Of a stretch of 44,050 nucleotides of DNA, positions 2,878 through 44,050 are shown piece after piece; position 1 is the first letter of the stretch, and every line of letters begins with the position of its first letter. A model generated the notes under the pieces. The model did not search any database. It had not been told where the DNA came from and saw only the letters and a program-made list of their open reading frames with translations. The position numbers and the translations under genes were made by a program. Source of the DNA: Candidatus Omnitrophota bacterium (GTDB taxonomy: Bacteria > Omnitrophota > Omnitrophia > JAHJGZ01 > JAFGJY01); NCBI GenBank assembly GCA_016928875.1, contig JAFGJY010000034.1:1-44050 (forward strand). The letters run 5' to 3'.

Positions 2878-2985
2878 AGAAACTGCCTTTTGGTAACAAA
2901 TAAACAGTGCCTATTGATACTAAATAAAGTATGACCGATGGAAACTATGATCGAGAGAAATTTCGATAACAGATGCTTTGTCTAA

Positions 2986-3013
2986 AATATAACATATCCT
3001 ATTGGCATTACAA
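2986..3013 (-). promoter_or_regulatory. Candidate sigma70-like promoter upstream of the phosphatase CDS
   Basis: On the minus strand TTGTAA - 16 bp - TATATT, about 110 bp upstream of the ATG at 2877, in an AT-rich intergenic stretch. Motif match only. Confidence 0.3.
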
Positions 3014-3083
3014 GACTTGCAGAGTTTTTCGTGATGTTTATAAAGATGCTTAAATGATTGAATTTGCGGTAGTTATAAAAACA

Positions 3084-3540: not shown

Positions 3541-3584
3541 ACGCGATACATATATGTATATTTTATGGTTTATTGTATGTATGT

Positions 3585-3620
3585 GTGTGTAGGGGCCGCA
3601 GATCTGCGGCCCCTACATAC
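3585..3620. repeat. REP-like palindrome (hairpin)
   Basis: GTAGGGGCCGCAGATCTGCGGCCCCTAC (3589-3616) is a perfect 28-bp palindrome; pairing extends to 3585/3620 with one wobble. Confidence 0.85.
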
Positions 3621-3654
3621 GCGGTTTTGCACCCCATACGCGGTTTTGCACCCC
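3617..3654. repeat. Two exact tandem copies of a 19-bp unit
   Basis: atacgcggttttgcacccc at 3617-3635 and 3636-3654. Confidence 0.9.
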
Positions 3655-3678
3655 ATATACGGTATTAATCGCATTTTT

Positions 3679-3698
3679 GGGCCGCACATGTGTGGCCC
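3679..3698. repeat. Second REP-like imperfect palindrome
   Basis: gggccgcacatgtgtggccc: same GGGCC..GGCCC stem type as 3589-3616, followed by the same CCCCTAC end. Lies just downstream of the giant-gene stop codon. Confidence 0.75.
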
Positions 3699-3707
3699 CT
3701 ACAAACT

Positions 3708-6700
3708 TTACGCTGCGACCGCGAACAATTCGTTGAACTTCTTCGCCTTAGCAAGCTGCTTCTTGAAGACCTCAACCAGGCGTTTTGACATTTCACCGCT
3801 CATCGTAAGTTTCGTTTTTTCAACCCGACGATCGGCGACTCCCTCGGCGACCATCTTAACGACACGCATACCTTGCACATCAAGCGTCGGCGCCTGCTCG
3901 AATCGATACACCATCATATCGTCGTCTTTGGCGCTGCTGAAGAACTCAACATCCTCGGCTTCAGGTAACGCCGCATTATTATCTATCCCGGCATAATACA
4001 TCCCCTCACGCGCCAGACTATCGTCCTTATCCATTAACACATTGACCGCATCCGCCTCGATCAAGGCCGTTATATCAAGCATGAATGAACGATTTGATGC
4101 GATCTCGATCGAACTGAAAAATCTCTCTAAAGCCTCATCCGATATATCAGGCTGTCCGTTCTTCATAATGGCTTCAAGTATACGTCTTGAAGTTTCTTCG
4201 TTATACTTACCTGAGAAAATAGTGACCTTGGCTGTAGCGCTCGACCATTTCATCGTATTTCCGACAGCCGCAACAAAGTCCTTAAGCCCTTGCACCTTTT
4301 TATCAAGCAACACGTTATTATTGGTCGCAGGAATAACGATCGTATCCTTACCGATCGTCACGCCGTGATCAGGCAGCAGCGTATCAAGGTTCACTATGAA
4401 ATTAAACTGCTTCGACTCCGGCACAGGCGTTACTACCTGCTCTTCAACAACAGTTACTTTACCGGCTCTTACCGGTTCAGTCACTGTCGGTGCTGTTATG
4501 TTAAACAACGTATTGAACGCAAATGCCGCACCTTGCGTTGCCAGGAAGATACCCGTGTCTTTCTCGATCATGTACGCATCACGCGCTTCCTTCATCAGCG
4601 TTGTCAAATAGCCGTCGAAGATGCCCGTCATAAAGGCGCCCAGAGCGTCAGCATAAAGCATCGTATTAAACCGTTGCACCGTAAACTGCGGATTTATGTC
4701 GCGCACGTAGTCGATGATCGTGTTCCTCCGTAATGTATCACCCGCAATACGCCATTCGCCTGTATCATCCGTCTTATACGCAAAGGTGACCTCGATAAGC
4801 CGTCTTAGGGCTTTAAAGTCGATCCGCGTATTGTCCGATGAGAGATAATCCCGCAGCCCAGTGACCGCATTCCTGAACGCCGCTGCACCTTCGAGCCGAT
4901 ACACATCCTTTAATTCAGCCCGCAAATATTCCATTTCTACGGTCGCAATGAACGCTTCCGTGGTAAACGCATCGATCTGTTTACCAGAATCAATATAGAT
5001 CCATTTGTGGACGAGTTCATGCAGTATTTCGGCCCGTAAGAGATACGGATTCGCAAAGATATCGATATCTATATCGATATACATTGTACCTGCTTCCTGA
5101 TAAAATCGGGCTCCACGTTTATTAGAAAGGTTATTGAATACCCTGACCTCGACGTCATTTATGAAGGGTTTGAATTTCGGGAACTGCTCCATAAGCTTGT
5201 ACAGTGCATTCTTGACCATTGTTTGTGCATTCTGGAACTCTCTGCGTGAGAGGACCCCGCGATCGCTCCACACATTGTTCTTCCCAATGAACAAGAGCTC
5301 TTCCGCCCCCTTTGGTTCCTCCATTACAAGCTGTGACTCGTCAACTGCTCTATCCTCATTTCCCTCACGCTGTTGTAGTGCCCTCATAAGATTTTCATTC
5401 AGTATAGTCAAGGCTAAATACACTGATTCATACAATTTCCTTGCTTGATTATAGTTAGCATCATTGAACTCGTTATCAGCTTTAATCAAAGCATCTTCAA
5501 CATCTTTTTTATAATTTATATCAGGGTTAAGATAAACCTTTCCATCATCAAATTTAGACATGTTTGAAATAAATTTTTCAAACATCATGTACGTTTTAGC
5601 CTTACTATTAATTGCCTCAATACCCTCGCTTTGTTTTTTGAAAAACTTAATAGTTTCCTTCTCATTCGCAGCATCTAGGAAACCGGGAGCTTTACTGAAA
5701 ACAAGATCCCTGATCACCACATAATCTCTCGTCACAATGTCATTGTGCTCTTTCTTTTGTAAATCATTCTGACGAGCGTTGCATTCGCTCATCGTACTAC
5801 TTAATTTAATGAACTCCGTAATAATACGGAGGTTTTTCATTAACACATCCAAAGTGGTGCGTGCATCTGAATATCTGTTTTGGCGCATAGACGACTTAAC
5901 CATTTCTAGCAATCTTAGTACATCATTTTCATCTAATGCTTTATTAAGATCTCTTAAATCGCTTTTTTTAACTTCCTTTTGCTTTCTTGTATCGTTATAT
6001 TTACGCAACAAATCAAGAGTATCATTATATTTAATTAGGGCATCTATCGCATCTTGGGCTTTACGGAACTGCTGTATTGAATCGCCAAATCCCTCTTTTA
6101 CGAGCAACTTATTGGCTGATTTAAATAATGTAGCAACAGTCGTATTATAATGATCGATCATAAAACTTTCTTCGTCTGACCTTTCAGTTTCATTCTTTCC
6201 TCTTACCTCAGTCGTATAATTTAAATATGTCTTCATCATCGACTTTGTTTTAAGTTTCTCAAACAAGGCAATAACTTTATCTATTGTCAACGTAGCATTT
6301 TCTTTAGCTTTAAGCAATAAAGCCGACACATATTCCTGGTCTGATAATTGCATAACACTCTTACCATCTAATAGCATATCGTCCTCGACTTTCAAACCCT
6401 CCTTCTCGAGATATTCTTTCATAAAATACTCTTGCTCATTATACGCAGCATTTATTTCCGCATTCAACTTTAGGCTATTTTCGAAAAGCTCTTTATACAA
6501 CTTATTAGATGCTTCGTATAGACCTTTTCCACTCTTTTCATTCGCTTCTTCTATTTTCCTTTTGATCCCCCTGAATCTCTTATCGAACTCTCTTCTTTTC
6601 ATGTCAATCGCAATACCATTGATCCTCTTGCTCATTTCATCAGTAAGTAAACTATTCACACTCCATCTGTGGAAATCATTAAGGATCTCAATATTCTCAG

Positions 6701-9700: not shown

Positions 9701-12700
9701 AATGCGGCTTTGATGGCCCCATGTAATCGAGTATGCCTTTTTCGATCGCCTTAAAATAATCGAGTTTTTCAAGCAATCCCTCCACATATTTATTGTCCTT
9801 GATCAAAGTATCCCTCTTGATGTCGCCTTTCATCGTTTCCAATAATTGCAATCTGCGGTATACGCTTATCGATCCCCAGTGAGTCTCGATATATGAATAT
9901 TGCGACTCAAACATTATCCTGCGTATCTGACGTTGAATGTACTGGAAGAGCTTAAAATACTCGATATCAACAATGCCGTAATCACCATATGGTCTGCCAT
10001 TGATAGTTCTTGCCTCTTCATCTATCTTAGCAAAGATAAGGTCCTTTTCTTCATCCGGTGTTTGCGCTATATCCCGGAATTTCATAAAGTTAAGATCTTT
10101 CTCCTCAAGAGAGGCAATATCCGTCATATCGACGAGTAAAAGCCGCAATTTTTCCCAATCATCTAATCTCCCTTGTTCATGGGGCTTAGCTCCGGGCATT
10201 TTGGTTATTGATATATCAAGTATATGCTCAGCACCGTTTTCAGGCGGGGCTCCTTGCAGATCAATATATTTTTGTTTCCAACGCTCATAAAGCCCGATCC
10301 TCGAAACAAATAAATTCGATCGATAATGCTTTTGCTTACCATACATCATAGTATAATAGGTAAGATATTCACCTATGACCCATGAAAAGATATAGATCAA
10401 CCCACCGCGCCATAAAAGCACCGTATCGATATTAAACACTTGTACCAAACTAATGATGAGAATACCGTACACCCATGGCCGCAGCCACAATGTTGAAGGC
10501 TGACGGATACGCTGAGCATCATCTTTCGGATCGAACTGCGTCATGGTTATGATGTATTTGATCGGTGTTATAATGAGCCCTGCCATCATCAATACTATGA
10601 TCAGGCCATGCATAGAACGGAATAAAATGCCCCATCCTACAGGCAATCCTGTGGCAAAAAACGCAAGATACAGGAACGCTGATGCCACATACAGTCCTAT
10701 CCCGGACCATACCAAAGCCTTGCCAAACTTATTTATGTCTCCGAAATACACATCCCAAATAGAAAATCCCTTCGCCAAGGTATCCTCGATCTCTTTTGAC
10801 GTATCGGCTGCAGATATCCATAGCGGTTTCTTGCCTTTAATGACCGTATACACCCCGACTAATATGGCATTTTGGACAAATAAAGGCCACATGAGGAGTT
10901 TCTGAGAGAAGAACGTTTCCTTAACTGAAAGTTTGAGACGTTTCGCGGTCAATGAAGTAATATCAAATATATTCCATCGTGTTTTTATATTAAGCTTTCT
11001 ATATATCCAATCCCACCTTCTGGCAATCCACCCCGGTGCCGCAAGAACGGCAACGAACGTAATAAAACCCGGTATCCCGTACACGATAAGCGCGCGTATC
11101 ATATAAAACATAAATGCTGATACACGATTGCCCAATAGATAATCCTGGATAGGGCTTATGAACGTAGCAATGGGTGTTTGAGCGATAAGGCCTACGAGCG
11201 GCTGCCACAAATACACACTAAGGAAATAAACCGCTACTGCTGCGGCAACAGCCATAAGCGTAAGTACTATTAAGTTCGTTAGCTGTTCACGGATAGGTTT
11301 TTTCTGGGCCTCACCGAATATCGCACCGACGGTCGCAGGTACGACCTTCGATAACGGTATCATGGTAAACATGACAAAGGCAAAGATAAGGGCTGAAAAG
11401 AGCGGATACGCAGCACCCATGATCCCTGAGGCAACGACCGCCGGCATACCGAAGAGTATTAACCAAATAAGGAACTGCTGCGGGCCGAGGATACCGCCTG
11501 TCACGATCTCCAGGTATTTACGCGACCCGGGCCGCAAGGTGCTCCGGTCATCCTCAACGCCCATGATATCATCGTACTTTTTATACCTAAATTCATTTTG
11601 TAAACGCTCAAGGTGTTGTTTACGTAAGATCAGTTTTTTATATTCATATAAACGTTGATCTTCAATCGTTTGTAATTTTGCTTTGATCGTACGCAATTCA
11701 TCTTCAGTGGCCTTCTTTTCTTCTTCGCTCTCTAGCTTACGCAATTTCTCAGCTGTCAATTCCTTCTCTTTTGTGACTTGGTCGAATTGCTTTTCAAGCG
11801 GTTTTAACGATTCTCTTATGTTAATCTCTCCGCTTTGGATCTTACGTCTGATCTCTTCGGTGCTCATATTCTGAAAGCCCTCAAGCACACGGTTGATCCC
11901 GTCAAGCAGCTGGATCTGTTCCATCATGACCTCAAGAGCTGCGTCACGGTTCTCCCATTTCTTCCCCTTGAACCATGCGCCGAATACGGTATCAGCATGT
12001 AGTAATATGACGTCACCCGGCAGCCATCCCTGCGCACGTTTAATGACCGAATACATGTCGTTCGGATTGTCGCCGATTATCGTATTGAACTTTTCATCAT
12101 CAAATGACTTTATAAGGCGCGCAAAGGTACGCAATGCTTCCCAGTGATCGTGACTACGCGCGATAAACAGCACCGATTGCTTAAAAAGTATATTTTTCGG
12201 ATACAAGACATTATCCATGAACATCTTGCCCCAGGCCGATGATTCCTCGAAGATCTCATCATGGCGATATGCCACATAACGAAGCACGTCTTGGGCAAAT
12301 GCCTGTTCTTCCACGTTCAAATTATATCCTCCGTTGGTGATCGCAATGAATTTCTGCCAAAGCCCAACCACCTCTTTTTTATGTTTACGGACATACGCAG
12401 AGGCTACGGAAACTGAGCTCTTTGTCGATCCGCGCAACATACGCTCTTCAGCATCGGTCTGTTCGAGGAACCTAAACTGCTGCTCAGCCCAAACACGCTG
12501 CGGCGACCCTATTCCGTTGGCTGATACTTGATCGACCTTCTCTCCTGTGTCTGCGTCAACAACCTTCTTCCTGTCAAACAAATATTCGTTTTGATCCCCT
12601 ACGCTTATATGTAAAAAATCACCGATATACGCGATATCTTCGTCATTCGCGTTAGATACCGCCTTCCCGTACATACTGCCTTCTTTTTCTTCGGTCTGGA

Positions 12701-15700
12701 TAAATTTGAACTGACCACGACCCGCAAGCTTCTTATAGATAACGATATCTTTCGTTTTATAATGGATAGAGTGTATATCCTTGTCATACACACCAAGATA
12801 CTCATCATCATCATGTTTATTAACATCCCATAAATTACCTAACTCATCGACAAGGTACGTATCAGGCGATATACGAACACCGTCAAGCTTCCTGCAATAC
12901 ACACCCTCATCATCCATAAAAACTTCCTGCACAGTATAAAGCAAGGACCGCTTCCTAATATTTATAGTGCCGTTCCTGTCGGGCTTATCTTCTATATAGA
13001 ACGTATTGGCATGTGCTAACCGCGAGTAGCGGAAAAGATCGCCTTTCTTAGCCATGGCGCCTGTGCCCTTCAAGCTGTGTGTTTGGTAGACCTTATCAGT
13101 TGACTCAATAGCGATCTGGTGCGGCATTACTCCGATAAAGTTAAACGAGAAGCCCGTAATATTCTCTACAAATGAAAGATAATGCCCCCCCGCCCCCGCA
13201 CGATACCTCATTGAGAACCCATCACCACTATTAAGCACATATCCGTCTTGATACGGATATTCACCCTCTTTAATATCCGTTTTCGGATACCGCACTAAGC
13301 GTGCATGGTATTCGATATCTGCTAGTAATTTATCAAGCATAATACGCTTTGAGGTAAAGAGCTCGGAATTAAAATCGTAGATATTCCTAAGTTGTCGTAT
13401 CATTTTCTCATAATCATCGACTGTTATGAACATAAGGTTCTCACGGCCGCTCTTCTTGATAACGAGTCCCGTTCCGTCATCCGTCCCATCGAAAACTCCA
13501 TCCTCATCAAGCCGGTCCATCATTTTCTTATTAAATCCGGTCGCATAATACCCTCCTACCTCTCCCGCATTCGGATCAGGATTTTGATTCTTTGCAAATG
13601 TCCCTTCGCGTGCGATCACCTTACGCACACCCCAGCCACGAAACATTCCGCGTATATCATAAAGTGATACCATCCCCGACTTGAGGATCGATCCCTCATT
13701 CGTTTCAGAAAGACGTTTATTTTCCGTAATTGTTCGAAATTCCTCTCGCCCAAAAACCTTCATTTCCGCTAACGTCTTCATATCATCGTCTGAAAGTTCT
13801 TCCCCGACAATAAACTGTGGCATGGTAATCAGATCACCCCGGATATCAACAAATGCTTCACCGGCTTTTGCTAATAGTTGCGGCCCGGCTTGTATTTCCT
13901 GCTCCGTTTCACCAAGCATATCTTCATGATCACCTTGTGGAATGGCATTCTTGTAAACTCCGTGATAAAATTCGCGCCACACGATTTCGCCGTCTTCTTC
14001 GACATAATAATACGGCCTGTTAGATACCTCGAATTCACCGGATCTATTGACGAAGCCCACAACGCCATCATTATCAACAACTTCTCTATCGTAAAACACT
14101 CTCATAGTAGGATGGTCTTTCGGAAAACACATAAGCGGCTCTATCGGCATGAGGCGTCCGTCAAGCCCGAACCACGGGAAACTTGCTTCCTGCCACTCAA
14201 CCGCAAAGAGCTCGTCTTTCTTTTCCTTATCGCTGATCGTTGAACCGATATATTGCGCTAATCCCTCGAACTGAGATACTTTTTCACCTTTGGCATTGAG
14301 CGGCGCAGTGACCGAACCGGGCCATGGCTGTATGTCACCTTCAATGACCTTCTGCCTACCGTCCTCTTTAAATTCAATAAAATCATTAGTACGTTCATCA
14401 TAATTATAAAGCTCATACCGTGCCCATACATTACTGTACCCAACGTCTCTGTTATTTGGGCTGACAATATCAGTTATATGGCACATATAGGTCCGACGGG
14501 ACCTGCCGGCCTCTTTATCTTCTTCATATACATTACCGTCCGTGTCGACCAGGAAATAATACGGGGACGGATGCAAAGGATCGATGATCTTTTTATCTGC
14601 AAGCACATTTTCTTTAGGGTCATAATCTTCGCGCTTTCCTTCGGCTATCATAGTGGTCGCTATTTCAAAGCGGACCCTCGGAAGCGGTTTACCGCTACGG
14701 TCAGTAACGATCTCGCCGGCAACTTTGCCGAATCCGCCCGGCCGCCTCAAATATCCTTCTTCATCGAATATATAATCTCCTTTGCGCGCAACTAAATACC
14801 CTTCATGATCATAGAGGTCACCGCCCGACTCAACACGGATAGAAGAATACGCGCTATCAGGCTCTATGGGGACTAAGCGCAAGTTGTCTTTGAAGGTAAC
14901 ATCATAATACCAAACACCATTGATACGCACATCAAAGGTCTCACGCGCGTACATTCCGTTCTTAAGCTCAAGATACGCGTAATAGTCCTCATCATTCATG
15001 ACCTCTTCGTGCTTTGTAGGATCCCACGAAGCATCTTGGTCGTGCTTAAATACACGATAGGTACCGTCATTATTCGGCAACTTGCTCTTTAGTCTCTTAA
15101 TACGCCAGTCATTCATACGTGACATGTAATGCATATGATAATTCGTACCATACGCAAAATACATCATACGGGCCTGATACGCTCTTTGCTTTGCGTTCAA
15201 TGCTTTATAACGATTGTTAATAGGTAAACCAAAACCAAATATGTTCGCATTGTTGCGTTTTGAGATGATAACCCTATTTCTTCCCACATCACGACGGAGC
15301 CGTAAAAATCCGTTCATATGTTCTATAAGAGAACGCGCCTGCGTCGGATCTATCCTATGGTCACTCGAGAACACGGTATAAAATTCGTCAAAGGGATCAT
15401 AATTCCCGAACTGATCTTTCTTCATGTTGGAACGGTAACTACTCTCCCAGATCCCTTCATACACCTGCGATCCATACGTGGATTCAGCAGCCGCAAGGTC
15501 AGAATTAAGGAACAAGGTGGTCTTAAGGTTCGGCGGAATGCGGCCCGTTACTTCGATCTGTTCATTGCCCTGGTAATCAAATGCCTGCTCTTTCTTGTGG
15601 TCTTTAAGGGACGAATGCCACAATAACACAAGCCGCGGCATATAATAAATGAGCGCTGTGATAGCAATGATCAGCACAGTAGCGCCAAGCGTTGTATTGA

Positions 15701-18700
15701 GGAACCATATATTCCCGAATAATTGCCCCGGATGGAAGACAGTAAGCAATGACGTAAACCAACCAATATTGCTCAACGGAGTAATATGAGCAGCCAAATT
15801 TACACATAAGGTCAGGAATCCATAATAAAGCCCCAGGGTGAACAGGTTGCGAAAGATATGCTTAACAAACGTTGCTATGATCGTATAAAGCAGGTTCACA
15901 ACGTCCTTATTGATAAACCGGAAGATAAGTGTCGCGGCCGCGAGCACAATGCCGATACTTTGTGCCATGTCAGCCGTGACCAATGAATAGAGCAGGACCA
16001 AGATACCTAATAAGAACGCCTCATGAACAAGGCCATAGGTCGCGCCTTTAATGTAATTCCAGAAATCCTGAATGCGGATCCGCACATTGACGTTCGCCTC
16101 AAAAGCCTTATCGGTAGGCGTACGTTCCATATCACGTTCATCAGGAGTAATATAGCGCCCTGTTTTATTGAAGACAGGACTAAATATACCGAAGAACGTG
16201 GCAACCTGCCGCACAAATTCCTTTAAGCGATCAAGGAAGAAATATACAAGCGAAATAAAAGCAGCCCCTATCAATATGTTTGATAACAACTGATATTGTT
16301 CTATTATTTTTTGACTTATATTGATGAGCAATTCCAGATCCTGTCCGAGATGCACGTTGAGAAGAATTAAAATGATGATCGGAGCCATAAAGACAGTAAA
16401 TTGCAACACCTTCAAGAAAAAGGCCCGTGTCGATGCCCTCTGCCATGCCTTTCTATCGATCGGCGCACCTTTTCTATCGTCCGGCTTGATCATCGCCAAA
16501 CTCTGTGCGGTATCCGTATCGACTTTCCGGCTCATTCGCTGCAGATAGTTATAGACCGGCGTGTTATAAATAAAAAGATATCTCGTCCCGTGCCAAAAAT
16601 AATACAAAGCGAGTGCAACAAGATAGAATATTGCGAACTGAAAGAGGTGAGGATCAAGAGCAAATGCCATCACGGCCCCTATACCTAAATACACTATTTG
16701 ATGGACCACTCCTTTACGCAAACTGACGATCTGATGTGTCTTGGTCTTCTTAGAAAGCCTCTCAAAGCGGTCCGGTATCCAAAAACGGCGCTGTTCCTTC
16801 ATTTTGAATTCACGGGTACTGTCATCAGTATCTTTCTTAGCGATGTTTTCTATATTTTTCTTAAAACGCCATTTATCATATCTTTTATTTATGAACCGTC
16901 CTACACTGATCGCTATACCGACCGTAAGCACAAAAGGCACAAATGTCGTAAATGCCACATAACTGCCAATGACGAACTGGAAGAAATATGCCGAGAAGGC
17001 GATCAGCGTGAGTACGATACCTGTGTTAAGTGCATGCACAAAACCGCGGGATACTATCTTACGTGCTTCATGCCACACATTTTGTCCTTTAACGTCATTT
17101 CGCCACCTGACGTATGTAATGCCCAGATTAACGAGCATACGTACGCCCCATACGATCCCCATATACATAAGGATGTCGCTGCCTATGCCTAGCGCGAAAG
17201 CGCTTTGAAGGAGTGGTCCAGCATGAAGAAACGCACTGCTAAATTGGTAAGAAACGATGAACATCGGCCCAAAAAGGAGGATATATACAAATAACTGCTG
17301 CAAGAATACCCATAACTGGTGCCATAACTGTTGCAAGAATACCCATAACTGTTGCAAGAATACCCACGCTTTATTAGGTTCTTTAGGTCCCGCGCGTGCC
17401 TCAACTTCTCCTATGCCGGCAGTTGTCCCCTTACCACCATCATCGGTTGAAGCGATCGTACCCGTTTCATCGGCTTTCGTAGGCTTCTCCGCTTCATCCC
17501 TAGCATCTCCTTTACCCTCTTTATCACGTGGCCGTCCATCGCCAGGCTGTTTTTTGATCTTATCTTTAACAAAGCGTGAGACCTTCTTTTGCTTACGCAA
17601 GATCCACTGGAAGATCAGCAATAAACCGGCAACTAAAGCAAGCACCTGAGTCGCATATTTCTTGAAACCCGAAACAAAACCTCTCAAAGGCTGTTCGATC
17701 TTTTCTACAATATTCTGGCCTGCTCGTTCTTCGTAGGCACGCAGCATCTCCGCACCTTCTGCGCGTTGTTCATTAAAGTATTTAAAATAATTTACGAGCA
17801 GTTGCTTTTCAGTATCGTTGAGTGTGACTATATTATTTATGCCGAGCTCACTCCCCAGCTGACCCGTAACCTTACGTGCGAGATCTTGCATAATGTTCTT
17901 GCCTAACACATTGAAGTGGTCTTTCTTTATTACAGTAGCAGAGTACGTATCATAAAGTGTTTGAGCAGACGAGAAATATGGCGTACTGCTCATGCCTGAA
18001 TCATACCCTTCGTCTATAAATACGAGCAATGCCTCGATATCGATCTCTGCTGTACTGACCTGAAGATATCCCGCCATCGTATCAAGGAGCGCCGGTAATT
18101 GCCGCATTAAATACAGCGCTTTCGGTACATCCGCTACTTTCGCGCGCCCCGGCCTGTCGGCTGATTGATAGAGCACATAATAAACGACATCGTCAACAAC
18201 TTTATCAAAACCGTCAAAGGTCGCGCCTTTGTCTTCTTTGAATCCCGACATAGCCGTAACGTAATTCTTTAACAGTGTCTTTTCCGCTTCCGTTAACGGC
18301 GCCTTCGCTATCATCTTTCGAATAATGAGCGGCACCGCAGCATCGACTGTTTGCGTCTTCATGCCTTCCGGCAGAACTGTGATCTCCGGAACACGTACGA
18401 TACCCTTATACACCATGTAGATCGCATCTATTGAGAAATCGCCTGCCTTCATATCGAAGATACGCGCTATTTCTTCGCGAATGGCGAACATGGCCCGATA
18501 TGCCTCAAACGTACTATCGATCTCCGCCTGCGTAGCGTTAGCCGCTGCTATCTGCTCGCGGAAATATACCGTAAACATGTTCTTGGCAAATTGGTCATAC
18601 TCACCTTCCTGCCCTTCATACATCTTCAAGAAATCCTCGAGCGCCTTGTTGAATTCGCGCGATTGCGCCTCAAGGTATATCCCTTTCGCACTGCGCGGAT

Positions 18701-21700
18701 TGTTCTCGATCCCGTATAACGAATACTGCGTTTGCGGAAATACTTCTTGCGCTATTTCAAGGATACCGATCTGTCCCCGCTCATCCCTGTGGTCAAAATA
18801 CGCGAGAGCTTGCATATCCTGCTCATCGAACTCCTTCGCATATTTCAAGCGGCCTTCCTGTATATTGATGATCTTCCGCAGTACCGGCGGCATATCATCG
18901 GTCTTCGCCCGTGCGACCTTAAGATCACGGCGAACCGTTTCCTTTTTCTGCCAGATACCGTATACCTTGTGCTCAAGCAATTCTAACGGCATATTCTTAT
19001 CAAGCATCCTCACTGCCAGTGATCTTGTGAATTCTGCGGCTTTGATCTTATTTACCTTAGAGACTGCCCAGCCTGTATCATCATAATATGTGCGGTATTC
19101 TTCGAGACCGATCCATTCACCTGCTTCGTCATAGTGCTTTGAATACAGTATAGAATGTACCTTGTTCGCGTAAAACTCGATTATCTGTTTCTCTAATGTA
19201 TTGATCGCATTTGTCAATGACTCGCCTTCGCTTATTTTGATCATATGCAGCAATGGATCTATTTCAGGATACTGATCGATCATGTAGTCATACTTGTTCA
19301 TGGCTTCGCTGAGCATAACAAGATAGGGACGGGCATCCTCGTCAGCTCGCAACATAGTATCTAATTGCGCATATACGCTGCTAATCTCAGAAACAACATC
19401 CTTTTTATCTTGTGCTGCGGTTGCGCCCTCTAAAGCATTTAAGATATCATCGATCCGAGCGATCATCTGTGCATTAGCGCCATCTACTCCAATATAATTC
19501 CGCATATCTTCTAACGATGCTTTCAGCATGTTCTTGTCGGCATTGTAAACCGATGAAAGGATATCCAGTATCAATCTGACGTCATTCGCCGTATTATTGG
19601 CATCTAATTCCTTCATCTTTTGTACGAGACGATATATACGCGTCTCAGGCAGCTCGTCAACCGTTATCCCTGCAAAATTGACCCTGAAGATTGTAGCCAT
19701 GGCATCAAGAGATTGGCTCGCGAGGTATTTTTTCATCTCGAGCGAAAGCGAATCGAAGTCGATACCTTCCCCGATCACATCCGTCATGAGACGATCACGG
19801 TATTTCATTGACTCTTCGATCACCTTGTCAAAACGGCTCATATCCAAGACATACTCTTTCACATATTTACCCTCAACGATATTGCCCTGCGCATCGATCA
19901 TTTGCAGTATTTCGGCTTTGTACGTAATAACCCCCTGACTGAAAAGCTGTCCAACGATACCGGAAAGCACGCCGTCCTGTTCGACCTTTTTACGGATAAG
20001 CTTGTTGCGAGCATCGATCGACGGGACATCGTCGCTATAGGCCGGTATAATGATCTCTTCGATAAGCCCTAACCGTTCAAATGAACGCTTTACATGCTGC
20101 AGCACGCTTGTTTCTTGTTGTAATTCGCCGGGCAATGTTGTTGCAACATCGCGTCGGCCTAAATAATACATTAAACGCCCACGCTCATCAGAGTTAACAC
20201 GGGTAACCTCATCGTCATTGCGGCTGCTGTGCAGCGAAACATATCCAACGCGGATCAGATCGGTCAGTATCTGTAATTCGCCGATCAAAGAAGCCATTTG
20301 TTGTTCGTTCTGTGCGCTAATAACTACATCTTCTCTTCGTTCATAGCGGTCCGTCGTCGTGTTCAAAATATAATATTTGTTAAATAAAGGATGCTTAAGA
20401 GCCTCATCGCCCATTATCCTTTGCCGTTTCTTCGATATGACCTGCGGCAAAACATACATGTCCCGGCCCACGCGATATTCACGCTCATTCTCAACCTGAT
20501 AGACCAAAATGTAGCTCACGGCATCTTCCACGGAATACCCCTGGGTCATGATCAGGCTCACGATAGTACTGACCGTATACGGCTTGATCTCATTCGGTGT
20601 TGTCGTGCGGGTAGCATTACGCGTGATATTATCGAAGAATTGCGTTATATTAAGGCCGTCCCTCATCTGCACATCATAATAATAACTGTCCATCCGCGCA
20701 CGTATATCGCCAAAAATACCCAACTCTTCAAGCTCAGCCCTTCTTGACCAAACCTCTCGTAGGACTTTTACTTTGTAGTCATTCTGCAATCTGAGCCACA
20801 TCTCGGAAAAAGCTTGCGGCGTTTCCTCACGGCCGTCCCTTTTCGTCAACTCAGCAAGCGTGTTCATCAACCTGACCTCGCGGTCATGGATCTTGTCCTT
20901 AGAGCGATTTTCACGATACCGGCCGTTCAACTCTGCAAGCAGGGTCTCGTTATCCATCTTTCTGTTCTCTTCACTGATGCGCCATTGTTCTGATAATGTC
21001 AGATAATAATCGGCAGCATACCGCACAGTGTTATCACGTATCGCTCCCTCTATAAAACTCTGTATATCCGGAGAACGCACATCTTGGCCACGTTCCTTGG
21101 CAACGGTGATCAACAATCTTTCTGTAGCTTTCTGAAAACCGCTCAAGTCTTCTGTTATTTCCTGGAGTTTCTGCTCCCATTCATCGGGTTGATAATGTGC
21201 CTCAACGGCTTTTCGGAACATCTGGTTGATCAATATAAATATTTCTTCAGCAGGTAATTCTTCCGTTTCATTGCGATACTTCGATGCAATAGCACGAAAG
21301 TCTTCAGCTAAAACACCCAGGTTCTTATCCAAGTGAGAAATGGTCACCTTGCGCAGATCTCGTTCGAATCTCCATTTTTTCATACCGCCCGCGCCCCATG
21401 TCTTATCAAATTGTTCCGGCAGAAAATACGCGATCGCCATGGGATCAAGGTCTTTACCAACCAATATCAAGTATTGCGTTAAGACATAGGTGCGGCGCTC
21501 AAAATAATCCTTAAGCCACGCCGATAGCTCTTCACGTTCCAAGTACCCCAGATCATAGACCTGTTCGTACAATTTCTCTACCAGCCCCGAAACTTGCCCT
21601 TCGGTCAGTTTAAATATCCTGCGGTCAAAGAACGCCTGCTGTTCATTAAACTTCTCTTGCACGTCTTTATTCTTAGCGATCATCTCGAGCTGCGCATCTT

Positions 21701-30700: not shown

Positions 30701-33700
30701 GATACTTCTTGAATATCACCGAATAGCCGCCGGACTTCACGACGATATCATCGGCATAGGCCGAAATAACGCCCATGCGATACAGTTCCCGGTCATGAAG
30801 GTTCTTGAAATATTCGATATCGCGCGTATCGGTAACCCATGTCGGCTGGGTGATCTTATATTTCTGATCGCCGACTGCGGACGTCGACAAGAAACCCGGT
30901 TTGCTGAAGCGGCTCATATCATCGATATATTGCCGTAACGAGAGGTTATATGCATCGCCGCTCGCTTTAAATTCAGACTCTAGTCCCGGCAATAGGCCTT
31001 TTTTATAGCGCTGGTGTATGTCGATCATGATATCAAGTTTAAGACTCGCTTCTTCAACGGTATTGCAGCCGCGGGCGACTTCACGCGCCAGATATTCGAT
31101 CTGCGCGTCGTGCTTGACGTTCATGTCCGTTTGCAGGGTAAGCTCGAGCAATTTCTCGAGCTTATCGATCAACATCAGTTTCACGACGACCATTTGAATG
31201 TACTGATCGACGTCACCATAGAGTTTATTCGGATCCCCGCCTTTTCCGTCACCGATCATACGCGCGATCGCCATGATCTCATTAAAATCACGCGGATTAT
31301 CCATTTCGTAATTATTGTTGGCTATATCAATGAAATCACGGTTCTCTCTGAGCTCGCCCGCGATCTCGACCGTATTCAGAAAATCTTCAACAGTAGCATA
31401 CGGAGCCCCAATGGCCGCGATGTCCTTGGCATAGGCCAGGGCTTCTCCGAATACATCCGGCTCCATGATCAGCGTTATTAATTCATCAAAAATATCAATA
31501 TCATCAAAAATGCCCGGATATTTACTAAAAATAATGTTCTGACGATACCGGTCATCTTTGATGAGATCGATCGCGATCTTGAACCTACGTATATATTCAT
31601 ACACGTCGATCTTGTCGTATGTCTTCCATTTCTGTAATTCCTGGATCCACAACGTCACGGTATCCGGCCCTCTGGTCGTTACGAACTGCGCCATGCCGAG
31701 CAGGACCGCAAGCATTTTTGAATCAGCGCGCGCTTCTTCTTTCGACGCACGGAGATCATTGCTTACTTTTTGGATAAAATCAAACGGCGATGTATTGCCG
31801 TCAAAAACCTCGTCTATAAGATCCTCCCCCAGCAGCGGTAACAGATAATCTTTAATGACAACTAAGGCGTCAATATAATCGTCAATATACCACTGCGGTA
31901 TTTCAATGATCTCGGAATCCAAGCCATTGACATAATCAAGCGGATCCTTATAAACGAACAAAAGCCCCGCATCCTTTGTATCCAAAACCATATAATACGC
32001 GGCACCGAAGAGCAGGCCTGATATCATAAAATCCGTGTACAGTTCGGCTCCCACCTTCATTTCGGTGCTCAACATCCTCTCCCTGAAGCCCTGCAAACCG
32101 TTAACCGGATTACCATACACGGCCAAGAACCGCGGGCTGTCAAGAAGCGCGAGCACCACTTTCACCTGCCGCATATATTCGTTAAAAGAGAATATACGTG
32201 CCGGATCGTTCTCGTAATCATATAAGACTATGTCGCCCGTGGATGAATCAATGAACGGTTTCTTGATGAAATGCACCCCATATCGGCCGCTCACCTCGAT
32301 CGGATCTCCCGGTATCTCGACGATCTCGGCAACGCTGAAATAGATACCCTGGACGACCGCATTACGCACTATTTTCTCGTCATTGGCACGATCATCATAG
32401 GGAAGCTTGGTCGGGAAATGATCATATAAACGCGTAAAATCGTTATCTGTCTGGCCTGGCTGAACTCGTTTAAGTTCCAATACAACACGCACCCGGCGCA
32501 CGTATTCGTCGATCTGTATCGGCTGTATCCACGTCTCGCGGATAAGCGCCCCGGTCTGCGAGCTGTACAGTCTCAGCGGGATCGCGCCGCTTACCTCATG
32601 GGCAATCCCTGGATTGACCCGTTCTATATCGCCCTGCATCAATTCCACGATGGCGGCAGCACCAAAATATGCGCCGATGCGATACTGAATATCGTATTGT
32701 CGTATCCTATACTCACGCAGCGGGTCTGCCGCATCCGGATAGCGCGCGTTAGCAGCTTCCAGCATTTCCTGCGTTGTCGGGAATGTCCCGAACAGTTCCG
32801 CGAAAGCGCTGTAGCGCGGATTATCCCGCAGTTCAAGGATGACCTCAAGACGGCGGTTATATTCTTCATAGGTAATCGCATCCATGAATGATTTCGTGTG
32901 CGTGCTCGGGCCGGTATAATCACGCAGTTCGATCGGACGGCCTAATTGGTCTATCTCGGTCTGTGTTTCGTACACGGTCGCGGCTGCGGCAAAGTAACGG
33001 CCGCTCTCGACCGCTATCTTGCGCCGCGCGTCAAAGCTCCCCCTGTTCTCAAACGTGAGTGGCTCAGGGAATTCACCAAAAAGCTTTATAAAATTATCAT
33101 TTGTTCTCAGTTTATTGACGATCGCTACGCGCCGCATATATTCATCGAACTGTATCGGCTCCTGCCAGGTATTGTATTCAACGATAATGTTGCCATTGTC
33201 ATCGTAGGTCCGTAATGGAACCGTTTCCTGACCGCTTATGGCCTGGATATCGCCTTTGTTAAGCTCAACGATGCCTGCTACCCCGAAATATGCGCCGATA
33301 CGTACTTGCCGATCGAACCGTTCACGTTCGATCTGATCCTGAGAGACATCTTCACCCGGCATCTGTATCATCTCTTGAACGGTCGGGAACGTTCCAAAGA
33401 GATCTATAAACTCGTCTGATGATTGCCCATCATAACCCTTGATCAACGCGCATACGACCTTGAGTTGACGCTCGTATTCCTGAAGCAATATCGGCTCGAT
33501 CCAGGTCACGTAATCAACAGCTCCGGTCTCCCAATTGAAGGTCGTAAGCTTGATAGCTGTCTTTGCATCATTCGCGCGTTCACTATTAGTCCGCATGATA
33601 TCACCACGTTGCAATTCAACCATGCTTGCAATAGCAAAGTATCCGCTTATGATCGTATTACGCGCATAGAGGTCCTCATCGCTTATATCGTTAGTAAGAG

Positions 33701-36700
33701 TATATTTTCTATATTCACCAAAAAGTTCTGTAAAATCGTTTTTCACGCTTTCTTTGAGCGGTAATAAACTTTTAATAACCGCCATACGGCGGATATATTC
33801 GGTGATATTGACCGGTAAATAATAATTGGTGTTCTTGATAACTGCCCCACCGTCAACTGCCTGTTGACCATTAATGCTCTTGTATTTCTTATACTCTCTG
33901 AACCTCACCGGTTGATCAGGATCAAGTTTAAGCGCGGTATACGAATCGTCGTATACTAATGCAGCAACAGAGAAATAGCTCGCCACAATGATCTGACGCA
34001 GTCTTTCATTGTCAAAATCGAGAATGCTGTATTTATCGACGTTACCGTACAATTCAAGAAACGTCTCATCCTTAAGCAGTTTATCGATGATATCGAGACG
34101 GCGCTTGTATTCTTCTATTTCAGTTGGCAGGAAGCGGCTCACTTCATTTAAGAAGGCCGGTGTCTGGCCAAGCACAGGATTATCAGCTGCCCTATATTTC
34201 TTATATTCAGCGAACCGCACAACTGTATCAGCATTGACATTCCCAACTCCCTGTTTATATACCAACGCTGCGGTCGACATATAGGCCGCGATGATGACCT
34301 GGCGCGCTTTCTGGTCTTGTTCGTTAAGCGCATCTGCCGCATACTTATCAAGATCACCATACAACCGTTTAAAGGTCGCGTTCGTGATCAGCTCATCGAC
34401 AATGCCAAGCCGGCGTTTGAACTCAGTGAGGTTAACCGGTAAGAACCAGTTCACTTCATCAATGACCCGCGGCGTATTATCCTTCGTCAAGTCCCCATCA
34501 TCCTTTATCGTGTATTTCTTGAACTTCACAAATTCGATCGGTTCCTTGCCAAAATCAGGATGGGTCTTTTCATCATAGACAAGCGCGGCGGTTGAGAGAT
34601 ATGCCGCAACAACAATACCACGTTTCTTGATCAATTCATCCCATAGCGATGGGTCCTGCTTAAGGATATCGTCGATGTTCGTGAGAGTACCGTAGAGTTT
34701 CGTAAAGATCGTGCTGATGTTGCTATCGTTCATAAGATTATCGACGATAGAAAGACGGCGTTTGAACTCACTGAGTTCAGTCGGCAGATAGTAATTCACT
34801 TCTTCGAGCACTTTCGGCGTATTGGCAAGCGTCAACTCACCGTTCTTGGCAATAGTGTATTTCTTATACTGGGCAAAGCGTATCTCTTTATACTTCCACT
34901 CAGCATCACTGCTGACATCCTTATCATAGATCAGCGCCGCTGCCGAGAAATAGGACGCGATAATGACCTGGCGCGCTTTTTGGACCTTCTCGTCGGTCGA
35001 ATTGATCGCATATTTATCAAGATCGCCATACAGCGTCTTGAACGCCGGTTCTGTCATGAGTTCTTTAATAATAGCCAGCTGGCGTTTGTATTCCTTGAAA
35101 CCGGTGCGTAAGAACCAATTGACCTCTTCCAGTACTTCAGGATAGTCGGTGATCGGGTTTTCGGCCGTGCCCGTATATTTCGTATATTTGACGATACGGA
35201 TCGGCTCATCGCCGCCGGTCGGATCGGCAGTCTCATCATAGATCAGGTTTGCTGTAGCAAAATATCCGGCAAGCACAATGCTGCGCTCATCCAAGAGCGC
35301 TTCCCATTCAGAGCGCGGACGACTGAAGATATCGCTCAGGCTCCTGAGTGTTCCATAAAGGGCCTGGAAGGTCGCGGAAACATTGGGATCATTAAGGATG
35401 TTGTTGAACACCGTTATCTGACGCATGTAATCCTGGAGCTCGGTCGCCATGAAGCGATTGACCTCGATCAGTTTCTCGCCCTGATCGACTGCCGGTGCGG
35501 CCGGATCATCGCTCGTATAATTCAGATATTCCTTAAAGATCACCGGCTTGTCTATGTCAAAGCCCGCAACGTTACTTTCATACACCAGAGCCGCTACCGC
35601 GAAATAAGATGCAACGACAACCTGACGGGCCGCTTCTTTGGCTTTATCTCCAAGAGGATAATCAGAAAGCTTACCGTAGATCGCCGTGAAATCATCGTTC
35701 GCTATCAGCTGGCCGATAACATTGAGCTGGCGAGTATATTCGGTCAGGCCGGTCGGCACATAACGATTTACGGACTTAAGGGACTTGCCCTGGTCAACGG
35801 CCGCCGCATTCGGATCATTGCTTTCATATTTGAAATATTCGTAGAACACCACAGGATTATCCAATGACAACAACTTCGCTGTGTAGGTACTGTCAGAGAC
35901 AAGGGCCGCAGCCGCGAAATAGCCGGCAACGACAGCCTGACGTGCTTCCTTGGTCTCGGCATTCCCCAGCGCATAATCATTGAGGTTCCCGTAGATCTTA
36001 AGGAATGTCTCATTCTTAATGAGCTTGCCGATCATGTCCAAACGGCGTTTATACTCTTTCAGCTCCGTCCCCTGATAGCGGCTCACGTTCTTCAAGACCG
36101 GCTCATCGACGACTTCGGCTGTTGGGAAATATTCCTTGAAAACGACCGGTTCTGCAGCGTCGAACCGTGTATCGCCGTCTGCATAAATAAGTGCTACTGC
36201 CGTCATATACCCGGCGACCGCATCACTGCGAGCGTCCCCTGTGAGGGTTGCTATATCGCCGTACAATTGTTTGAAGATCGGCGCGACAGTCTCGTCATTA
36301 AGGATATTGACGAGAACCTCAAGACGGCGTTCGTACTCAGACAGCTTGACGCCGAGGAAATAATTGACCTTGACGATCACGGCTTCATCATTGCGCTCCT
36401 CGAATTCAATGAACGGGATCGGCTTGTCCGTCACTTCATTATCCTCGAAAACGATCGCGGCAACGCCGAAATACGTTCCGACCGCCTCGCTCACCGCGCG
36501 CTTGGCCTCAGCATTATTGCGGTCTTCATACGACACCTGTTCCGGAAAGGCGCCGAAGATAGCAACGAAATTCTCGTTCGCCTTTAATTTATTGGCGATC
36601 TTCACCTGGCGGATATATTCGCTCAAAAGTATGGGAACCTGCCAGGTCGTGGAAATGATCTCGCCGGCCTCATTATATTCGCGCAGCGCCACGACATCCT

Positions 36701-39700
36701 TCCCCGTCGTTTCCTTAATATCACCTTTACTCATCTCGATCATCCCAGCGACCCCGAAATAAAGGCCGATCCGCTGCTGTATCTCAAAACGTGCAATCGC
36801 CCCTTCTTCGCCCGGCATCGCTTCCGCAGCCCTTATCTCCTCTATCGTCGGGAAGGTCGCATTGAAATCGCCGACCGTGAAGAGTTCCGCGAACTTTTCT
36901 TCGTTCTTCAGCGCTATGACGACATTGACCTGGCGGATATATTCATCGAGCGTTATCCCCTCAACGTATGTTGTCGTGTATTCCGTCGCACTCGTATAAT
37001 TCTTAAGCGCGATCGCGCCTTTTATCTCCGCCTGGGTCTTAAAAACGATACCTGCCACGCCAAAATAGATACCCACCTGTATCGCGTCATCCGGGTTAAA
37101 CGTATCATCCAAACCGTACAATGTCTTGAAGGAGGCGTATTTCTGATTATTAACAAGTTCCGTCACGATCGCGACCTGACGGACATATTCCGTAAGGCTC
37201 AGCTGCTCCATCCACGATTCTTTAACGAGATTCCCGTTCTCATCGAATTGCATAAGATGAACGACATCGGCCGTGGCACCTTCCACACTGTCATCATACA
37301 GCATCGCCGCAACGCCGAAATACCGTCCTGTGGTCGTCGGATTATCAGGATCAAATCCGGCGCCGAGTTGATACAACGCCCTGAACTGATCGTATTGTTT
37401 GTTTGACAGATCCGACAACTTGCTCACTATATTTACTTGGTCTTCAAAATCATCAAGTTCTATCTGCATCATCCAATTCGTCTTAACAAGATTGCCCGAT
37501 GGATCGAATTCCTTCAGATTGACCTTGCGCGGTTCTGCCTGAACTGTTTTATCGTAAAGGATACCGGCAACGCCGAAATAACGTCCCACTTTTATTGGAT
37601 CATCAGGCTTAAAGCCGGTGCCGAGGTCATACAAGTCGCGGAAGGGAGCAAAGCGATCATCGTTCACCAATTTCGTGACAATGGCAACTTGGGCCTTGAA
37701 CGAACTGAACGCGATCTGTTCGAGCCATGTATCTTTTATCGGATTTCCATTATCATCGAATTTTATAAGATGTACCATCTTGGGCGTCGCACCGGCAACA
37801 CTGTCATCGTACAGCAGCGCAGCGACACCAAAGTAACGGCCGACCTGTACCGCATTATCCGGATCATATTCTTCAGGTAATTCGTATAACTGCCTGAATG
37901 GTTTAAAGTCGGGATCTCTAGCCAGACGCACCACCACATTCGCCTGATTTGCGAAATCATTCAGTTCGACCTGCATCATCCAAAATCTGCTTGTAACGTT
38001 CGTCGGCGAATCATAGGCCCTCAATTCTATCGGTTCTGTCGGCGCTGACTGAACGGTCCTGTCATAAAGGATCCCGGCAACACCAAAGTAACGGCCAACG
38101 CTTATAGGATTGGTTACAACAAATTCTCCTATAAGGCTGCGGTAACCATCAAATCTCCGATCATTGATGAGGACTTGCACGATGTGAGACTGGCGTGCAT
38201 ATTCACTCAATGCGATCGCCGGATAAAATTTACTCGTAGAACTCGTCTCGGACGTATAGGCCTTCAGCTCGACCGCCTCGGTTGGCAAGCTCCCGTCCTG
38301 ATAAACAAGGGCCGCGGCACCAAAATACGAACCAACCACATCCTGATCAGCCGCATTCCACGCACCAAAGAGATTGGCATTGCGCAGATCAGCGAACCGC
38401 GCCTCACGCGCAAAGGCGCGCACGATCGCAAGCCGGCGTTGATATTCGGCGAGCGATATCCTTTCATAATAATTCCCTTTTTCTGTCCTTAATACGCCGG
38501 TCCCGATAAAATCAACGGCACCGAAATAGCGACCGATACTCTCGGCATCACCAACAGTAAATTCACCAAATAAATTTATAAAATTCGGGTCATTCTTCAG
38601 TTCATACACCGTAGCGCATTGAGCGAGATAATCCTCAAGCGGTATATTATGCTCTTGGATATATCCGGCTGCTCCAAAATAGACGCCAACGGTCGTTGCA
38701 TTGTTCGGGTTCCATCCGCCATAAACCGCGGCAAAACGGCCGTTCGGGAATTTGGTCGTATCTGGGTTGTTCACATCGTCAATAAGATCGCGCACCATAC
38801 CGCATTGATCGAGGTATTGCGCTGCCGTCATCCCGTGCGACTGAATATATCCGGCAGACCCGAAATAGACGCCTACCATATTCTGATCGTTCGCATTCCA
38901 AGCTCCGAAGAGCGAGGCAAAACGGCCCTGAGGGAACCGATCAGTGTCAGGATTGCCCTCATCTTCAATAAGTTCAAGCACGATACCGCATTGATCGAGG
39001 TATTGCGAAGCTGTCATCCCGTGCGACTGAATATACCCGGCAGCGCCGAAATAAAGCCCAACCACAGCAGGGTCATTCGCATTCCAGGGCTTTTCAAACA
39101 ATGCCACAAAGCGGCCGTCCGAGCTCAATTGTTGAACGATGGCGCACTGCTGGAGGTATTGATTGACGTATTCGTCAACTGGTATATTATTTGTCGCGGC
39201 AGTTTTCTGGATATTCCCCGCGGCACCGAAATAAACGCCGATCATCGTCGTGTTGTTCTGGTCCCATACTCCAAAAAGGGTAGAAAAACGGCCGGCTGGA
39301 TCTGATCTCAATTTCTGAACGATATCGCACTGCTCCAAATATGCCGGTGCCGAGACGCCATGTGCCATATTGTAACTGGCAGTCCCGAAATAGATGCCGA
39401 TCCTCGTTTGATTGTTTCTGTCCCACGTCCCAAAGAGAGTAGAAAATCGATTTTGCTGGTCCGCTGCTAAAGTGTGTACATATGCGCATTGTGCAAGGTA
39501 TGTTGATGGCGATATATTATGCGACTGAATATACCCGGCAGCGCCGAAATACTGGCCTACACTAGCGGTATTTGTACTACTCCATACGCCATAGAGATAT
39601 TGAAAATCAAGGTTACTTCTAAAATAATTCTGAACCCAGTCGGCTTGCTCAAGGTAATTATTGACATTCGTCAGATAATTGCCCGGTAATCCGCTCAAAT

Positions 39701-42700
39701 AATTGACGAGATTGAGAACAGTCGTCTGATGCTGAGCAGGCCAAGTGCTGAACGGTACTCCTATGTAATTCTGCATGCCAAACAACGTCATATAATTCAC
39801 ATCATTGATCAATAACACAAAGCCCTCATAGATCTCGTCAAAGCTCAAAGCACTGGTAGTGATCTCATCGCTCACGGCTGTCGCGCTGGCTGCAAGTTCG
39901 GTCTCAGCCGCGGCAGTACTCGTTGCCGTTGCCGCTGCCGGTACGGCCGTCGCTGCCTTTGTGGTCGGAGAAGCTGTGGCTGATTTAGCGGTCAACGTCG
40001 GTGCTGTCATTAATAAAGGACTCGTGCTGGTATATGCTGCCGTTGATTTCAGACTGCCGCCCGAAACCGCGGGTGCTGTACTCGTCAGGTTGCCGCGCCT
40101 GATCAGCACCTTCATAAGCTCGTTCGTCGTCTCTTCATCCTTATCGACGTTCGTCTTGAGCTTCTGGAATGCCATCAGGTTGATGAACAACAGTTCACCG
40201 GTCAGCTGGTTTTGTTCAGCCATTGAGCTGAATAACGCGCTCACGCGGTTTCTGTCGATCAGTTCTCCATCTTTAACAACGCTCCTTGTTATTGCATGAA
40301 GGGTGTCATTGACCCCCTTCATGCCGATGGCGCCGCGACCGATCGATGCATTGTAGTTCTCCGGGAATATCTCTCTCAAAATATCATTACAAACACGGAC
40401 ATTTTTAACATAATTCTCATACGTGCCGCCCCCTTGATAGAGACGTTTGGTGATGAAGGTATGCATGATACTACGATAGTATGGATTATTAACTGCCATA
40501 TCGTCAGATGAAAAACCATCAAAGATATTATTTTTGATCAAGTCGTCAGCGACCTGGATCGCGGCTTCGTAATACTTACTATCCGCGTTCTTTGCCAAGG
40601 CATAGCACGTTTCCGCCCACAGGTCATCAAGGTCCTCGGCTACCGTCATATCCAGACCTTCCGTGCGGCCGTATAACGCCTCGACCGACGGTTTGATCTC
40701 TGCCATGCGCGCGATGAATCTTGCGGCACTGAACGATATCTTGGTAGTGCCGGCTATCCAGCGTTCGGTCATCTCTTTCAGTAAGGCTTCCTGGTCCTCA
40801 AGCGTGAGCCCGGAGAGGAGATCTGCTGTAGCGAGCGCATCCTTCATTTCCCGTAAATAGGTAATGTAGGTATCATCAGTGACCGTCATACCGTTCACCG
40901 TAAACCCTTCGCCCAGGGCGATCTGTACAGCCAAAGCTTTTGTATTGACCGCGCCGCTGACGATCGGTTTGCTCTTTGTCGGAGCAATATCCTTGATATC
41001 ATTATGTATCTTAGCGAGTTTCTTTATGAAAGTACGGTAATTATCCCCGTTGTAAGTAGCAGTTGTATGAATGGCGCGCGAGGCGTATTTAAAGAGGGTG
41101 TTGATCGCTTGAGGATCATCAAGCAGGCCGGTAGCAGGAATGATCTCGAGCGCTATGAGATCATCCTTAAGCGACTTCATGGCCGTAAGAATACGTAATT
41201 GCTGTGTTTTATCCTGGACCGAGAGGCGTGTAGCAATATCAAGCATGGTCCTGATAAACCGCTCTTTATTCTCGGCTGATATCGTGATACCGAGATCATT
41301 AAGGACGCTGGCCGCATTCCGCACGTCCTCTTCCTGCACGCCATATGCCGCGACCTGGAATACCGGCGCTTCCGTGTTAGTGGCATTGCGCATCGAGAAG
41401 TCAATGCCTTTTCCGTCAAATACCTTATCAAGCACTATTTTTGCCTGCGCCATGTGTCTGATGAATTCAACCATTTCCTCCGGCTTGTAGCCCGCGTAGC
41501 TCGCAATGAACGAAAAATCTTTGCGGCCATTGTTCACGGCCACTCCTTGTATCGTCCTTAATTCGGCTTTCAGCGACGGATAGTCGGCGGCAAAGCTGAC
41601 CAATGATGTCGCCACAAGCGCACTTCCCTTCTCGCGGAGTTGTGTTATCGTTAACGCCGCGATAAAGAGGAAATCGAAATCCTGTTCATTCGTCAGATCG
41701 AACCCGCTCGTATCGATCTCGCTTATGACCGCGAGAATGCTCGTCAATTGTTCGCGGCTTAAGCCGCCCGCATCCAGCAAGCCGGGCGTAATAAAACGGG
41801 CAAAGGCATCGATCGTCTGATAATCGTTCATCGTAGGTGTGTGGCCCAATATCTTGGTGAAATTCACGTCTCTTAGTAACGCGATCATGTTCTCAAAATG
41901 AGCGACCACATTCTCATCGCTCAGTTCTTCAACTTTGGCAGCCGCCCACGCGAAGTACACGTCACGGCTCGCGCTGTCCTTTAACGCGTCGATCATGCTC
42001 AAGGCTGTATCGCCTAATGCAACGCGAATGGTGTTCAGGTATGGATTGAACGTACGAACATACGTAATAAATTCCTCAATATCTTCGACATCGGCAAGTT
42101 CTTCAAGGATAGCGATCGTTTTGTTCTTGACCTGCACCAGTTCATCAGAGGTAAGCGCGCGGGCCTCATCATTCCGCATGAAACGCGCGACTTCCTGCGT
42201 GGTTCTGAGGACATCTTCTTCCGTCGCTTTTGTAATGCCTTTTTGTTTCAAAGCGCTCACGACCTCAGCTGCCCATGTCTGCCAGCGTTGCATGGTTATC
42301 GTATCCTTGCCGAACGGCTTTAAGAGATCAAGCGTCGTATTCTCGATATCCTCGATCGAGACTTTCATCGATACCATCTTGGTGATCAAGGCCTGCACTT
42401 CTTCCTTCTTGAACTCGCCGAAGGTGATCATGCTTTCCCAATCGAAGAGCAGCGACGAGTCTTCCTGCCGCGTCACATCGAGCTTGTATAGCGGATCTGA
42501 ACTTAATTTCGGAAGTTCATCCATAAGCCACAGCCGCGTTTCGATAATGCCTTTGACCTTCTCGGCACCGTCTTTCAGGCCGAATTGATACGCGTTAACG
42601 GCCCAATATATAAGCTGCAGTTTGTGCTCCGGATTCTGTAAGGACACCTTATCGACCCCCAGATACGCGCGCACATATTCCGCAACATCGGCCATCATGC

Positions 42701-44050: not shown

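Follow-up and report, generated by a model that had tools for sequence, protein, structure and literature searches.

Open reading frames (ORFs) longer than 20 kb are already known from Omnitrophota, as reported in PMC10066038, PMC12057145 and PMC11573180, and the largest example cited is a 39,678-aa protein of Velamenicoccus archaeovorus, for which a structural coat has been proposed (PMC10066038). The same source portrays the giants of this phylum as adhesins or coat, with little conservation and few annotated domains. Adhesion domains (discoidin, laminin_G_3 and dockerin) are annotated in some giants of one class and are not required of all. The giants, in which few domains are recognizable, are also read as weapons. 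A second described system is the cyclic glucan synthase Cgs (PDB 8RF0, PMC10901819), which carries GT84, cyclase (CY) and GH94 domains. In Agrobacterium Cgs, D527 and D624 coordinate UDP, D739 is the base, R773 lies in the RW motif, and Y694 is self-glycosylated and carries the glucan primer (PMC10901819). The cyclase residues D1104 and E1300 correspond to acidic residues in a GH144 enzyme, and beta-1,2-glucans are the substrates of GH144 enzymes (PMC10901819). All soluble domains of Cgs are cytoplasmic, and its transmembrane (TM) bundle forms no export channel (PMC10901819).

The window analyzed here, 44,050 bases, is an entire contig (C51) of an Omnitrophota draft MAG of 1.73 Mb in 131 contigs, which is 77.65% complete. 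On its minus strand, to which all feature coordinates below refer, an open frame extends from 44048 to 3708, comprising 13,446 sense codons followed by a TAA at 3708-3710, uninterrupted by any N or stop; the codon of residue i begins at 44048-3(i-1). The ORF is ~40.3 kb long and is still open at 44050, where it runs off the end because the contig is exactly 44,050 bases, and the protein is thus >13,400 aa. An earlier note had claimed a single minus-strand ORF of >13,440 codons with its start outside the window, and had doubted that the TTG at 44036 is the real start; both claims hold, and the TTG is not a credible start. The draft assembly did not yield the true start, and none of its other contigs overlaps the 44050 end at the DNA level. 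We propose, at a probability of about 0.5, that this ORF encodes a giant single-chain envelope protein arranged around a split pair of cyclic-glucan-synthase-like modules, which would build or decorate a surface glycan coat, the activity being inferred.

A stop-free run as long as this ORF has a chance of ~e^-732 at 46% GC, as calculated from base composition. Each 1,000-codon block shows the GC pattern over codon positions that is typical of coding DNA. Synonymous codon choice mostly resembles that of 45 other ORFs from the genome, departing slightly from their range in parts of the repeats and in the AT-rich C-terminus. A misassembly that joined unrelated genes into one frame would be in keeping with a draft assembly of this fragmentation and completeness, and with the drop in GC over the last 2,500 codons. 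However, 40 kb pass without a stop or frameshift, coding periodicity is maintained all along, and the same modules occur in the same order in independent assemblies, for example in an 11,305-aa giant with both ends present within a 251-kb contig and in one of 16,199 aa from a 207-kb contig, so we regard such an artefact as very improbable. The sequence analysis shows the frame to be one genuine ORF in an Omnitrophota genome.

Several features were observed downstream of the giant gene. Directly after its stop, positions 3585-3706 contain REP-like palindromes (GTAGGGGCCGCAGATCTGCGGCCCCTACA and, 86 bases further along, a variant) as well as a 19-bp tandem repeat. Two overlapping minus-strand fragments in different frames follow at 3084-3540, and the 106-aa fragment matches Y1_Tnp (IS200-like transposase, 1.9e-9); the pair looks like a frameshifted REP-associated transposase separating the giant gene from the one that follows. 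The latter, at 1-2877 on the minus strand and cut by the contig end, opens with a signal-peptide-like sequence and encodes a Metallophos domain (PF00149, 2.5e-14). The window contains no tRNA and no Rfam family.

Pfam gave nothing above cut-off on the whole giant ORF. Among the stretches tested, the conserved segments are residues ~9340-11400 and the glucoamylase-like part. The first of these contains a region, residues ~9480-10700, that profile homology identifies as a divergent glycosyltransferase of the GT84 type, interrupted by a long beta-rich insert. The domain order given in the earlier note holds with corrections: its repeats A and B form one family, and its 'TM / beta module / TM' is this GT84-like glycosyltransferase. 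The N-terminal half of the domain lies at 14889..15611 (residues ~9480-9720), the beta-hairpin-rich insert, formerly the 'beta module', at 12519..14888 (residues ~9721-10510; alignments A1 and A2), and the catalytic C-terminal half at 11949..12506 (residues ~10515-10700). When compared by hhalign with a profile built from six Cgs proteins on plasmid records, the C-terminal half reached a probability of 97.1-97.5% and scores of 94.8-100.2 (100.2 with 12 rows), while controls stayed at <1%, with 60 column shuffles scoring ≤23.1, the reversal 23.2 and four other parts of Cgs ≤21.6. The N-terminal half scored 40.1 against controls of ≤20.6. The core profile also picked up Cgs-sized proteins of the same phylum at their GT84 domain (E 1e-9 to 1e-11), the three checked being GT84+CY+GH94, and in the reciprocal HMM search the Cgs GT84 profile matched three giants at 4e-8 to 6e-6.

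With Rhizobium Cgs as the alignment reference, whose numbering is the same as that of Agrobacterium Cgs, D10532 corresponds to D624, Y10591 to Y694 and D10634 to D739, and D9563 corresponds to D527 as read from the FSSD motif only. The second DxD aspartate is lost (D626 to E10534), and so is the RW arginine (R773 to G10674). The 12 divergent rows of alignment A5 all keep the first DxD aspartate, GK, H-D...E and R...W; giants often lack the second DxD aspartate, and the position of Y10591 is Tyr in 6/12 and aromatic in 10/12. The core therefore has the profile homology and the aspartates D527, D624 and D739 of GT84, but not the complete DxD or the RW arginine, and because of these two losses it is a changed, non-canonical GT84. 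Stand-alone GT84-like relatives display the GT2/GT84 motifs YHSD, D(A/S)D, THDHWEA and R..GW..GD, and go unrecognized by both Pfam and NCBIfam. A sequence search of the PDB with the GT core returned nothing useful, and an AlphaFold model of a stand-alone core relative (9 rows) was poor (pLDDT 43) and was discarded.

The second conserved segment, residues ~5558-5915 (26304..27377), is homologous to the Cgs cyclase domain and GH144 (PF10091), with the known acidic residues kept, and the 'glucoamylase-like' label of the earlier note is confirmed. A direct Pfam match of this domain fails; the assignment runs through a stand-alone protein, L105, which matches the window domain at 7e-27, PF10091 at 1.3e-13 and the solved Cgs at 9e-19, and homology to PF10091 was also obtained by hhalign (93%). 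S5637, D5640 and E5711 match S1101, D1104 and E1300 of Cgs. A class-wide search with the domain yielded stand-alone proteins, mostly of 565-760 aa, and a PDB sequence search with the single sequence gave nothing useful. The window domain has the canonical order, whereas a circular permutation with respect to Cgs is seen in the giants G053, G020 and G063, the permuted domain spanning residues 3066-3520 of L014 (the G053 giant) and 8331-8799 of G020.

The residues of both modules bear on a further explanation, in which the GT84-like and cyclase-like parts would be relics of a degenerate fusion and would serve only to anchor a very large structural coat protein in the membrane and to bind carbohydrate. 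Repeats and helices make up most of the mass, the equivalents of D626 and R773 are lost, and a structural coat has a precedent in the V. archaeovorus proposal (PMC10066038), but catalytic-type residues are selectively conserved, namely the equivalents of D527, D624, Y694 and D739 in the GT and of D1104 and E1300 in the CY domain, and we consider this explanation unlikely.

The glycosyltransferase lies between two TM blocks, the first with ~13 TM segments at 15639..17654 (residues 8799-9470) and the second with ~9-10 at 10344..11474 (residues 10859-11235), with one more near residues 11481-11499. Simple hydropathy scales and charge counts were used for the topology calls. Lys+Arg counts in successive loops of block 1 are 20/0/7/0/21/0/12/1/11/4, which amount to 71 in odd and 5 in even loops, and the odd/even bias was also observed in 9/9 relatives tested, being weakest in G205 and G038. 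Because of this bias, the GT domain is predicted to be cytoplasmic, and all ~8,800 residues before 8799, cyclase-like domain and repeats among them, are predicted to lie outside. The protein may thus have a surface role, given that the bulk of its chain would lie outside the inner membrane.

On the proposed synthase-like reading, the transferase would draw on a cytoplasmic nucleotide sugar, with its own tyrosine, Y10591, as a possible priming site, and the glycan would get to the outer side via the TM blocks, where the cyclase-like domain would trim, cyclize or transfer it. The repeats and helical stretches would hold both activities at the cell surface, and the resulting protein would build or decorate the glycan coat. 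The passage across the membrane is purely our supposition, because in Cgs both modules are cytoplasmic and the TM bundle is without an export channel (PMC10901819), which counts against this reading, as do the Glu at the second DxD aspartate, the Gly at the RW arginine, and the absence of GH94 from the fragment, whose N-terminus is missing.

The earlier note had linked the locus to attachment to, or lysis of, other cells. Such a role would have the outer part bind another cell, the glycoamylase-like domain and an HExxH peptidase digest its surface, and the GT core act as a dead anchor; it is the literature reading for the phylum (PMC10066038), GH144 enzymes act on beta-1,2-glucans (PMC10901819), the cyclase-like domain is predicted outside, and two catalytic positions of the GT are lost. 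Yet Pfam detected no adhesin, lectin or lytic domain, including discoidin, laminin_G_3 and dockerin, in the giant ORF, and both of the enzyme modules recognized are of glucan-synthase type. Against a dead anchor stand the first DxD aspartate, the SHD aspartate, GK and R...W, which are invariant across the 12 divergent proteins, and stand-alone forms with intact DAD/DSD exist, so that we find this role doubtful, though deserving some weight. The HExxH motif itself is present as HELVH at 5007..5021 (residues 13010-13014) in an orphan C-terminal domain and is a candidate zinc peptidase motif, with no Pfam match.

The remainder of the chain consists of repeats, linkers and orphan regions. A repeat array of ~27-29 units occupies 32019..39671 (residues ~1460-4010), with short units of 52-62 aa first and then long units of 79-117 aa that contain an extra beta-hairpin. 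The repeats that the earlier note had called A and B are indeed present, but they belong to a single family, with or without this hairpin, rather than to separate ones. Each unit is composed of a helix, a beta-hairpin and two helices, with the motif G.YFG.A...SL.EY.RQ..IV..L..D.RF..L.G. AlphaFold modeled three units, with the other units as rows of a shallow, self-derived alignment, at pLDDT 89.1 and pTM 0.83. A fold search against PDB and BFVD gave nothing at E <0.05 (best 0.06-0.08, with low TM-scores), a PDB sequence search gave nothing useful and Pfam gave no match, and a new fold for the repeat unit is suggested by the model.

Upstream of the array, a beta-rich stretch at 43299..44048 (residues 1-250) appears 'barrel-like' by eye and does not match the OEP-like domain of relatives; it is followed by a helical orphan at 40029..43298 (residues ~251-1340), for which 49 genomes of the class yielded no relatives, and by a Thr/Ala/Ser-rich linker at 39864..40016 (residues ~1345-1395). 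The 'barrel-like' and 'CBM-like' parts named in the earlier note are without profile support. A long helical stretch in which no domain was recognized lies at 17679..25271 (residues ~6260-8790), and a charged, helical or coiled-coil-like orphan at 5349..9551 (residues ~11500-12900). No relatives of residues 1-3000 or 11400-13446 were found in the 49 genomes of the class, and the C-terminal domain of the relatives G020 and G012 does not match the C-terminus of the window protein.

Matches to the core profile were detected in 35/384 sampled genomes of the phylum, and in 20/384 they lie in open frames ≥4,000 aa. Of two genomes that share the core, genome search ranked G012 as same class and G053 as same phylum. 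Giants of 23,964 aa (G013), 20,415 aa (G205), 16,199 aa (G020) and 11,305 aa (G063) were recovered, and sizes of the relatives' frames are to be read as lower bounds, many being cut by contig ends. The cyclase-like domain precedes the GT core in five giants (G053, G063, G020, G012 and G205) and follows it in G038. A ~500-aa N-terminal domain is common to G013, G020, G053, G063, G093 and G002 in the architecture map, and the N-termini of relatives carry signal-like segments. In the window's own genome, a search with this domain for the missing N-terminus returned only ordinary-sized, apparently secreted proteins. At least six genes there carry the domain ('IQDAH', weakly ChaN/Tiki-like), on contigs C94, C81, C108, C14, C43 and C11, most of them ordinary-sized and apparently secreted.

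Some relatives contain SecA-like, peptidoglycan-binding or outer-membrane-efflux-like domains, with SecA-like domains in G053, G063 and G093 (Pfam SecA_DEAD 1.4e-12 in G053) and an OEP match in G020 (1e-4); a TolC-like region was also seen within the G053 giant. By eye, the giant gene comes directly after same-strand RND-efflux-pump-like genes in G063:C12:104948-112683 and G053:C89:30781-34763. Three very long consecutive ORFs (4,481+, 20,415 and 8,666+ aa) occupy G205:C94:3-101597, the last two with near-identical N-terminal signal regions.

Beyond this locus, we tentatively suggest, with less than an even chance of being right, that a recurrent group of Omnitrophota giants may be single-chain trans-envelope glycan machines, with a GT84-type polymerase inside, a cyclase or transglycosylase outside and, in some members, domains of SecA-like, peptidoglycan-binding and outer-membrane-efflux-like kinds, which would produce a surface glycan coat, transport it and put it in place. 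The two Cgs-like modules of the window protein point to a role in surface glycans for at least one group of giants, which would then be more than adhesins or weapons. The function can be tested, because the core is conserved and has a known enzyme as its ancestor, its catalytic residues are mapped, and it has stand-alone relatives of ordinary size. If true, these giants would synthesize envelope glycans, perhaps including the 'coat', and, to our knowledge, would rank among the largest glycosyltransferase-containing proteins known.

Compared with the Omnitrophota giants described so far, the window protein is alike in phylum, size class (a single ORF >20 kb, here 40.3 kb without a stop), many TM helices (~23 in two blocks), a large predicted extracytoplasmic part and few database matches, and similar giants in independent assemblies of the phylum support the membership claimed in the earlier note. 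It differs in its GT84/cyclase core, the V. archaeovorus protein being compared by description only (PMC10066038), and it adds a ~2,550-residue repeat array without a match among solved structures. A GT84-like core in giants goes unmentioned in the accessible parts of PMC10066038, PMC12057145 and PMC11573180, and may have been noticed elsewhere. Stand-alone PF10091 proteins (GH144 endo-beta-1,2-glucanases, e.g. 5GZH) are homologous to the window domain, but are small separate proteins. The stand-alone GT84-like proteins G296 (1,469 aa) and G314 (1,287 aa, open at the contig end) have the same GT core and beta-rich insert, but unlike the window protein they retain an intact DxD, are of ordinary size and are without a cyclase-like domain or repeats. 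With Cgs, the window protein shares homologous GT84 and CY modules in one chain and the equivalents of D527, D624, Y694, D739, S1101, D1104 and E1300. In contrast to Cgs, its CY precedes its GT, the two lie thousands of residues apart and on opposite membrane sides (predicted), the GH94 phosphorylase domain is absent from the fragment, a long beta insert interrupts the GT, and D626 and R773 are lost; it has ~23 TM segments against 6 and is >4 times longer. New here is the predicted identity of the giant's middle, namely distant relatives of both working modules of Cgs on opposite sides of a membrane block.
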